From NCBI GenBank assembly GCA_933822405.4, contig CAKOGP040001947.1:186001-250000 (forward strand): DNA of 64,000 nt, given 5' to 3'. Shown here piece after piece: positions 46,298 through 48,256 of this stretch. A program made the position numbers and the translations under genes. The notes under the pieces were generated by a model. The model was not told the DNA's origin and made no database searches. It was given only the letters and a program-made list of their open reading frames with translations. Each line of letters starts with the position of its first letter. Position 1 is the first letter of the stretch. Source of the stretch: Cylindrotheca closterium (taxonomy: Eukaryota > Bacillariophyta > Bacillariophyceae > Bacillariales > Bacillariaceae).

Positions 46298-47030
46298 ATT
46301 TATTCAACTGCGTCGTAACGATATTGCTTTCGTTCTGTTGCAATGATGATGAATTAGGAGAGTGAATGATGTAAAACTATGTGTTTCTCAATAAATTTCG
46401 GATCACATGCGTGTTTTTGTTTCCAATGATACCTGTAGTACTGTACCTGAAAAGTCTTTCTAAAATTACGAAACTATGGGTTTTAGCGCGTGAGATTCGG
46501 CGGGCAATGGGCGGGGATCTTTGTACGGGCATTTGGTTGGGGGGAGGGGGTGAAAACCAGGAAGGAAGGTGGTGGTGCATGATCTACACACGCTTCTCAA
46601 CGGGGAATGCAAAGTGACATTGCGGTTCCTGAATTGTTTCTAGTACTGTAGTAAGCTATGGGTTCTTGGTTTCCTTCAAAAGTGATCATGATCCACACAT
46701 GCGTAGTCCTCTCAGTGGTATCGTGGGTCAAAAGAGGGTCATAATTTTGGAGATGCAAATCGACCTTTTTATTTTCAGGTTCTCCCGCCCGTTTGAAAAG
46801 CGTCAGCGTTAACTTGTGAAACAGCGCGCATGATAGAAATTCCACGTCAGTTCATATTTCCAGTTCCCAAATTTTGGGTGAGAATTTCTGAGCCAATCAA
46901 ACGAATCTAAACCAGCTGACGCGATGCTACGCGGCTGTTTGGCAGAACATGTAATTTCAAATTGGCCTATCGAAGTACTATTTTTTAAGATTTCGTACGA
47001 TTATTTCATACCAGTACGTACAGTATAGTT
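46298..47030. promoter_or_regulatory. Upstream region of MscS copy 1
   Basis: This is the 5' flank of MscS copy 1. A GGTTGGGGGGAGGGGG G-run lies near 46,537-46,552, a possible quadruplex-forming sequence. No gene is seen. Confidence 0.3.
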
Positions 47031-47280
47031 CTGTAGGACAAGAAATCATTTTCAATCATCAACCCATTCCGACCCTTGTTGTTGTAATCAGCCAAGCACT
47101 GTGAATCGCCACTCTTTTGCAGAATGCTTTTCTAAAACCATCACACTACCACAGTACCATGGTACTGTAGGACAAGAAATCATTTTCAATCATCAACCCA
47201 TTCCGACCCTTGTTGTTGTAATCAGCCAAGCACTGTGAATCGCCACTCATTTGCAGAATGCTTTTCTAAAACCATCACAC
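47031..47280 (+). repeat. 116-bp direct duplication
   Basis: 47,031-47,146 and 47,165-47,280 are nearly identical 116-bp units (one difference seen, ACTCTTTTGC versus ACTCATTTGC). They are separated by an 18-bp palindromic spacer TACCACAGTACCATGGTA. Both start CTGTAGGACAAG and end CATCACAC. No coding capacity. The near identity shows a recent event. Confidence 0.9.
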
Positions 47281-47476
47281 AAGCGTAACATCGAACAAAG
47301 AGGCTGTTTGGAATGGGAACTTTCCATGTAGACGCGATTCAACGGCACGCTCTTGACCTGGGTGATCAATTCTGGTGTAGACTCAATAATGATACGACAA
47401 GACTCAACAGCAATCGCCCTGTACTGTACGAACCCAGACACGGCGAGACCCCAACCAAAGTTTCCAACTATAGGTA

Positions 47477-47558
47477 TGTTGGAACGTGTATTAGATACTT
47501 AGATTAAGGTAGCCTGGTAGGCGCAGCGGTTCGATTCCGTAATACCTTATATTTGACA
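47477..47558 (+). repeat. 5' LTR of the TRIM
   Basis: TG...CA-ended 82-bp terminal repeat. A-box 47,510-47,521, B-box 47,528-47,538; possible acceptor-like stem AAGGTA (47,506-47,511) with TACCTT (47,543-47,548), D-like stem GCC/GGC and T-like stem CGG/CCG. Confidence 0.85.
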
Positions 47559-47728
47559 TGGTAAGGTTATGGGATCGAGTCCTCGGTTCACATTGCCCTT
47601 GTCGATCTTGGAAATGAATGCCGACTGTCTGCATCGACAGGATAAAGATGGACGTGCGAGGGTTTCGACACCAGAAATGGGTGTGCGAGGCTGAAGGGCT
47701 ATATCTATAAGTATCGAATAAGGGAGGA

Positions 47729-47824
47729 TGTTGGAACGTGTATTAGATACTTAGATTGGACTAGTCAGATTAAGGTAGCCTGGTAGGCGCAGCGGTTCGA
47801 TTCCGTAATACCTTATATTTGACA
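47729..47824 (+). repeat. 3' LTR of the TRIM
   Basis: 96-bp terminal repeat with the same ends, A-box 47,776-47,787 and B-box 47,794-47,804. It carries 14 bp lost from the 5' LTR by an AGATT-mediated deletion. Confidence 0.85.
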
Positions 47825-47830
47825 TAGGTA

Positions 47831-48256
47831 CATATAAGGCGATCGATTCTGGGGCGTTGTTTTGGAATGTATATCGCTTTCTTCCAAGATCATCCAAGGT
47901 GACTTCATGGAATTTCATCGAATCTGATCAATTCTAGACAAAAACTGGCAATGCGAAGTAGACAGACCTCAACAAGCAATAAAATAACACATCGAGCATG
48001 TCCAAAAAATTTAAGATTAGTAATCAGAACAAGGTCGTATCATACAAGATATCATGGCTCTTTCCTCAGCTTGATATGAAGTTTTGGACCAATAACGTCC
48101 GTCTGTCACCAGTCGCAAAATTTCTACCCAACACAATTATTTTTTCGTTGATGTCATTGTTGCACCATGGTGAGTTGGAGCCCATACATTCCTGTACACT
48201 GCATGAAAGTGGGATTGACACACTCAAAACATGTCTCTTTATCCTCTAGGAATGGC
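47831..48256. other. Intergenic, nothing recognised
   Basis: AT-rich sequence between the TRIM and a doubtful minus frame. An 83-residue plus frame (47,998-48,249) lacks any recognisable feature. Confidence 0.3.

Follow-up and report, generated by a model that had tools for sequence, protein, structure and literature searches.

A 348-bp TRIM of the diatom Cylindrotheca closterium (positions 47477–47824 of the window, the whole 64-kb stretch analysed here) carries tRNA-type promoter boxes within a tRNA-like segment of both its LTRs, and its primer-binding site (PBS) can pair with that segment's 3' end once CCA is appended. This sequence arrangement suggests, at roughly even odds, that the LTR of a non-autonomous TRIM encodes its own CCA-tailed primer by way of a shrunken tRNA-like segment and a Pol III promoter of tRNA type, likewise shrunken.

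Structure of the element

The 348-bp TRIM and its promoter-like LTR are confirmed, with the following parts (window coordinates):

47471–47476, no strand: 5' target-site duplication TAGGTA, same as 47825–47830
47477–47558, plus strand: 5' LTR, 82 bp, shorter than the 3' LTR by a 14-bp deletion (LTR comparison)
47505–47549, plus strand: tRNA-like segment of the 5' LTR, 45 nt, with acceptor-, D- and T-like stems and no anticodon arm (predicted fold; same 45 nt as 47771–47815)
47510–47521, plus strand: A-box TAGCCTGGTAGG of the 5' LTR (box pattern)
47528–47538, plus strand: B-box GGTTCGATTCC of the 5' LTR (box pattern)
47559–47582, plus strand: PBS and extension, able to pair with the CCA-extended 3' end of the tRNA-like segment of the LTR (pairing computation)
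47559–47728, plus strand: interior, 170 bp, without a sizeable ORF (ORF list)
47717–47728, plus strand: polypurine tract AATAAGGGAGGA (sequence; present again in other copies)
47729–47824, plus strand: 3' LTR, 96 bp (LTR alignment)
47771–47815, plus strand: tRNA-like segment of the 3' LTR; processing is predicted to leave its 3' end at 47815 (TACCTTA) (fold and tRNA register)
47776–47787, plus strand: A-box of the 3' LTR (box pattern)
47794–47804, plus strand: B-box of the 3' LTR (box pattern)
47825–47830, no strand: 3' target-site duplication TAGGTA, same as 47471–47476

The two LTRs share the termini TGTTGG...TTTGACA and have no substitution between them over their shared bases, their sole difference being the deletion in the 5' LTR, which is situated between two AGATT repeats. 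The PBS (TGGTAAGGTTATGGG) has its first base at 47559, with a gap of 0 nt from the 5' LTR, and the interior begins with TGGTAAGGTTATGGGATCGAGTCC; at its other end the purine tract adjoins the 3' LTR. Of the ATG ORFs that overlap the element, the longest has 64 aa and its start lies outside, and ARAGORN found no tRNA gene in the 64-kb window. An element of less than 1000 bp with two LTRs, a PBS, a polypurine tract and no coding capacity is a TRIM, and these observations agree with the first-pass annotation, which had described a complete, non-coding one with a 6-bp duplication, TG...CA LTR ends, an adjoining PBS and an abutting purine tract.

Just upstream of the TRIM (47025–47280) lie two copies of a 122-bp direct repeat, which are 98% alike and start 134 bp apart. 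The minus strand of 43148–63641 holds five consecutive near-alike ORF pairs, each made up of a 480–498-aa MscS-like ORF and one of 508–533 aa, and homologues of the MscS-like ORFs carry the name mechanosensitive channels. One protein of the window has named homologues in, among others, Grammatophora oceanica and Mayamaea pseudoterrestris, both of which are diatoms.

The family in the genome

The organism's own 47.6-Mb assembly contains 24 matches to the whole element, at 22 loci, and 35 matches to the LTR, so that the family, with two-LTR copies, solo LTRs and one tandem array, occupies at least 22 loci; 22 stretches were fetched and 35 LTRs aligned. Target duplications were compared at 14 of the 22 fetched loci, the outer ends of the other eight being absent, damaged or at a contig end. 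The 6-bp duplications are identical at 10 of the 14 (about 0.0004 by chance), differ by one base at two and show no match at two. LTR pairs within copies differ by 0 to 9 substitutions, and the terminus of the 3' LTR is GACA at all 14 loci with readable ends. A two-LTR copy (L016) and a solo LTR (L028) have flanks 95–99% alike over some 600 bases on each side, indicating that one site exists in both the full and the solo state, as alleles or as duplicates, and the end of contig C564 holds a tandem LTR-interior-LTR-interior-LTR array (L010) that reaches the contig end. A diverged copy (L025, C9:17200–18700, 82% alike over 198 positions) is without a recognisable 5' LTR, and its 3' LTR continues into the A-box region repeated in inverted orientation, as though a snap-back had occurred during reverse transcription; used as a query for diverged relatives, this copy gave 21 matches and no locus beyond the 22 known. 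The dispersed copies, their duplications, the divergence between LTRs, the site in full and solo state and the tandem array together identify a real, recently active LTR family. The genome search proposed in the first-pass annotation has accordingly refuted the possibility that no other copies exist.

Promoter boxes and the tRNA-like segment

The A-box of the LTR has one mismatch to the consensus TRGCNNAGYNGG and is followed, after 6 bp, by a perfect B-box, as had been claimed at the outset. The pattern TAGCNNNGTNGG-N{2,16}-GGTTCRANYC has 26 matches in 47.6 Mb, 25 of them in LTRs across the TRIM family, and its reversed control has none, so that the box pair is more than chance; the single close pair outside the family lies on contig C551, and the exact pattern gave 0 matches in viral contigs and 0 in prokaryote contigs.

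The fold suggested earlier fared less evenly. Its acceptor-, D- and T-like parts do make up the predicted minimum-energy fold of the 45 nt (a 7-bp acceptor-like stem with small D- and T-like hairpins), but the stability of this fold is unexceptional, being equalled by 27 of 200 shuffles of the 45 nt and by 29 of 200 of the LTR, and the proposed check against a tRNA covariance model went against it, the Rfam tRNA model giving no match up to E 10 in window positions 47400–47900. Rfam matches in this region are two 13-nt T-arm matches to the tmRNA model (E 3.1) and one to an unrelated miRNA model (E 3). Changes among copies amount to 2.5% in the tRNA-like part and 2.0% in U3, so that the former is no more conserved than the latter, although within-family conservation says little here because copies decay after insertion. 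Among isotypes tRNA-Asn is the most similar, with a score of 26.6 that hardly exceeds the 99th percentile of 300 shuffles (26.5), and descent from a given isotype was rejected on this ground. As tRNA-derived sequence, then, the LTRs present the boxes and no Rfam tRNA match, and their global similarity to host tRNAs is weak. Six of the 11 listed copies (two of these with extra DNA) contain TTTT, at which Pol III usually stops, and the five without it include the window copy. TFIIIC may fail to bind jointly two boxes 6 bp apart, and in algal tRNA genes upstream TATA-like signals may predominate, according to the accessible text of a review (PMC3978253).

The weak fold statistics, the lack of extra conservation within the family, the odd box spacing and the marginal tRNA-Asn similarity would all suit an ordinary Pol II TRIM, in which boxes and fold are products of chance or inert, and the complementarity of the PBS alone, or nothing, matters. 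Such an element would, however, leave little reason for a box pair almost unique to this family, for a PBS match that falls in the tRNA register, or for a copy (L022) in which the pairing described below extends to all positions, and we regard this account as very improbable.

Complementarity between the PBS and the LTR

When tRNA positions are counted from the T-loop and B-box, the discriminator base is the last A of TACCTTA, LTR position 87. This 3' end, extended by a CCA that is not encoded in the DNA there, has an uninterrupted match of 9 bases with the PBS; at the other LTR positions from 15 to 96 the match never exceeds 7. Runs of 9 bases occur at 11 of 127942 window positions (both strands, outside the TRIM and its complement), so that the run alone is not rare and the weight rests on its agreement with the tRNA register and on further pairing. 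Beyond a 2-nt bulge about 14 bp more are paired, for a total of −30.1 kcal/mol, a value reached by none of 5000 shuffles and to be compared with −22.8 for the best of 60 host tRNAs. The last base of the LTR, moreover, directly precedes TGG, as for a CCA-ended primer.

Across the 17 PBS sites that are preceded by an LTR (an 18th, L021, was left out for its truncated LTR) the run measures 9 bases in 13, 8 in one, 5 in one, and 12 and 13 in two, L018 and L022, where the PBS is without the bulge. All 25 of 25 positions pair in L022 (21 Watson-Crick and 4 G-U), compared with at most 18 Watson-Crick pairs in 20000 shuffles. The bulge-free form looks derived, since the diverged copy L025 carries the bulged one; copying of the tRNA-like RNA into the PBS would produce such a form, though two copies give a hint of this only. 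That the match stops at 9 in 13 of 17 sites indicates that the PBS is not regularly rewritten from a tRNA-like primer.

The same complementarity could operate in cis, the end of the LTR folding onto the PBS of the same RNA in the manner of the U5-IR stem of retroviruses and Tf1, either as a structural element or as a Tf1-like primer. Energy minimisation of the R-U5-PBS segment yields this hairpin (−32.4 kcal/mol, and −37.5 in L022; the value is −31.0 when the tRNA-like fold is imposed), which appears also in the fold of the whole element, and stems tolerate both G-U pairs and a bulge; the accessible text on Tf1, whose first 11 bases pair with its PBS, provides a precedent (PMC7175516). A cis stem nevertheless leaves the primer unnamed and gives no reason for the alignment of TGG with a CCA that the DNA does not encode, at the 3' end predicted from tRNA geometry. 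Were the primer to end in CCTTA, TGG would fall within the LTR, yet the 3' LTR ends in GACA in 14 of 14 cases, unless integrase trims three bases. A purely cis explanation is possible but, in our view, unlikely; the CCA register and the ending of the LTR just before TGG favour a CCA-tailed primer, alongside which cis roles may operate too.

Host tRNAs as a possible primer

The first-pass annotation had offered a different origin for the resemblance, namely that a host tRNA primes and that the LTR holds a shrunken capture of it, serving as promoter only. The PBS of an LTR element ordinarily matches a host tRNA, and capture of the primer tRNA would account for the similarity between LTR and PBS. 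A PBS-complementary tRNA-end pattern, however, had 20 matches, 16 in the TRIM family and four outside, none of the latter a tRNA by ARAGORN; a second had 4, judged by eye, none of them a tRNA outside the family; and further patterns had 24 and 26, with 23 of each in the family and the remaining one and three being no tRNAs. A host tRNA ending in CCTTA was found neither by the patterns, applied genome-wide, nor among 60 fetched tRNAs, the best of which (L087) matches the PBS over 7 bases. Covariance-model scoring covered 63 of 1908 candidates, and 60 were fetched; this partial census, and the escape of the initiator tRNA from T-loop patterns, leave host priming some room, although it appears decidedly improbable. 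Within this scope the primer tRNA implied by the earlier reading did not emerge from the comparison with host tRNA ends. The suggestion that the LTR descends from the primer tRNA comes near the reading preferred here, but these searches turned up no host tRNA of that kind. Since the best partner found for the PBS is the tRNA-like segment of the LTR itself, this segment may be the primer rather than the primer's relic.

Candidate helper elements

The PBS sequence CATGGTAAGGTTA occurs 16 times in the genome (control 2+2), in every case within the TRIM family, and an autonomous partner sharing this PBS was rejected on that basis. The junction of polypurine tract and LTR, allowing up to 2 mismatches, has 30 matches, 17 in the family and 13 outside (control 4+3). 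RVT_2 has 150 matches in the genome; the ends of six such loci comprised TG-start LTRs in two, direct repeats without TG ends in two and no LTR pair found in two. Both TG-start Copia elements (L143 and L144) have an interior start unlike that of the TRIM, and one of their LTRs begins with TGTTGGAA, like the TRIM. Both interiors begin near (T)CGCTCCCTCTGCG, not TGG; the complement of this (T)CGCTCCCTCTGCG start presumably resembles the D-arm of the initiator tRNA, so that these elements may prime with an internal part of a tRNA. Their target duplications are ambiguous, 5 or 6 bp in L144 and without a clean match in L143; diatom Copia elements have heterogeneous target duplications according to the accessible text of PMC2806351.

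A proposed priming route and its relation to known systems

If the LTR encodes its own primer, Pol III transcription would start inside an LTR, of a full-length or a solo copy, tRNA-processing enzymes would cut after the discriminator base (TACCTTA), and CCA would then be added. The product, an anticodon-less tRNA-like RNA of about 45 nt ending in TACCTTACCA, would anneal to the PBS of the element itself (TGGTAAGGT...) and prime minus-strand DNA synthesis there, by an enzyme acting in trans and perhaps supplied by a Copia element. The sequences themselves show the anatomy, the family, the target duplications, the boxes and the complementarity in tRNA register; Pol III use, processing, CCA addition, priming and helper we infer. 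Counted in favour of this route are the mobile family, the family-confined boxes, the match in tRNA register, the extended pairing, L018 and L022, the failure of the host tRNA searches to find one ending in CCTTA, and the LTR end before TGG; counted against it are the unexceptional fold, the missing Rfam tRNA match, a tRNA-like part no more conserved than U3, the box spacing, the frequency of 9-base runs as such, the 13 of 17 sites stopping at 9, the cis hairpin and the presence of TTTT in six of 11 copies. More tentatively, and at somewhat less than even odds, the LTR would be a gene for its own CCA-tailed, anticodon-less primer that occasionally rewrites the PBS (L018, L022), thereby freeing the element from host primer tRNAs.

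The primers known for LTR elements are host tRNAs, either intact or as fragments, or, in Tf1, a piece cut from the element's own mRNA. To our knowledge the sequence of the primer tRNA is not inherited in Ty1, and engineered tRNA-like primers exist in murine retroviral vectors. No self-encoded tRNA-like primer was found among the open-access papers listed by the searches, as judged by titles and the opening parts of abstracts, and relative to this literature the self-primer reading is new.

TRIMs with tRNA-like LTRs are already published as Helenus (TRIMp3; Kojima 2024, PMC10886601), which qualifies the novelty first suggested. In the accessible text of that report, Helenus elements (311–1263 bp) inhabit fungi, animals and Selaginella, make target duplications of 4 or 5 bp, and share with the TRIM described here a PBS and polypurine tract, A- and B-boxes in both LTRs, solo LTRs and tandem arrays. 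The present family differs in its diatom host, its 6-bp duplications, its boxes 6 bp apart and its lack of an anticodon arm. It differs also in a PBS complementary to the LTR tRNA-like segment plus CCA, no complementarity between tRNA-like sequence and PBS having been found for Helenus in that text. As far as these sources extend, the class is known, and the link between the tRNA-like segment and the PBS is new.

The comparison with Cassandra, drawn at the outset, was apt, both being TRIMs with Pol III-type promoter sequence in their LTRs; as described in the accessible text of PMC10853983, Cassandra is distinguished by its 5S rRNA promoter, its plant hosts and a PBS for the host methionine tRNA, and no 5S rRNA-derived sequence was matched in window positions 47400–47900 up to E 10. 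Tf1 resembles the TRIM in having a PBS complementary to the element's own RNA and, on the self-primer reading, in needing no host tRNA, but it is, from the same partial source (PMC7175516), an autonomous Ty3/gypsy element whose primer is the initial 11 bases of its mRNA, released by an RNase H cut, without a tRNA-like part or CCA. The available part of a 2026 meeting report (PMC12859917) adds nothing on priming.

The family would widen the host range of tRNA-promoter TRIMs, known in 2024 from fungi, animals and a plant. If the LTR does encode its own primer, a self-transcribed tRNA-like RNA would constitute a further priming route for LTR elements and would account for the retention of a tRNA-like sequence in an LTR.
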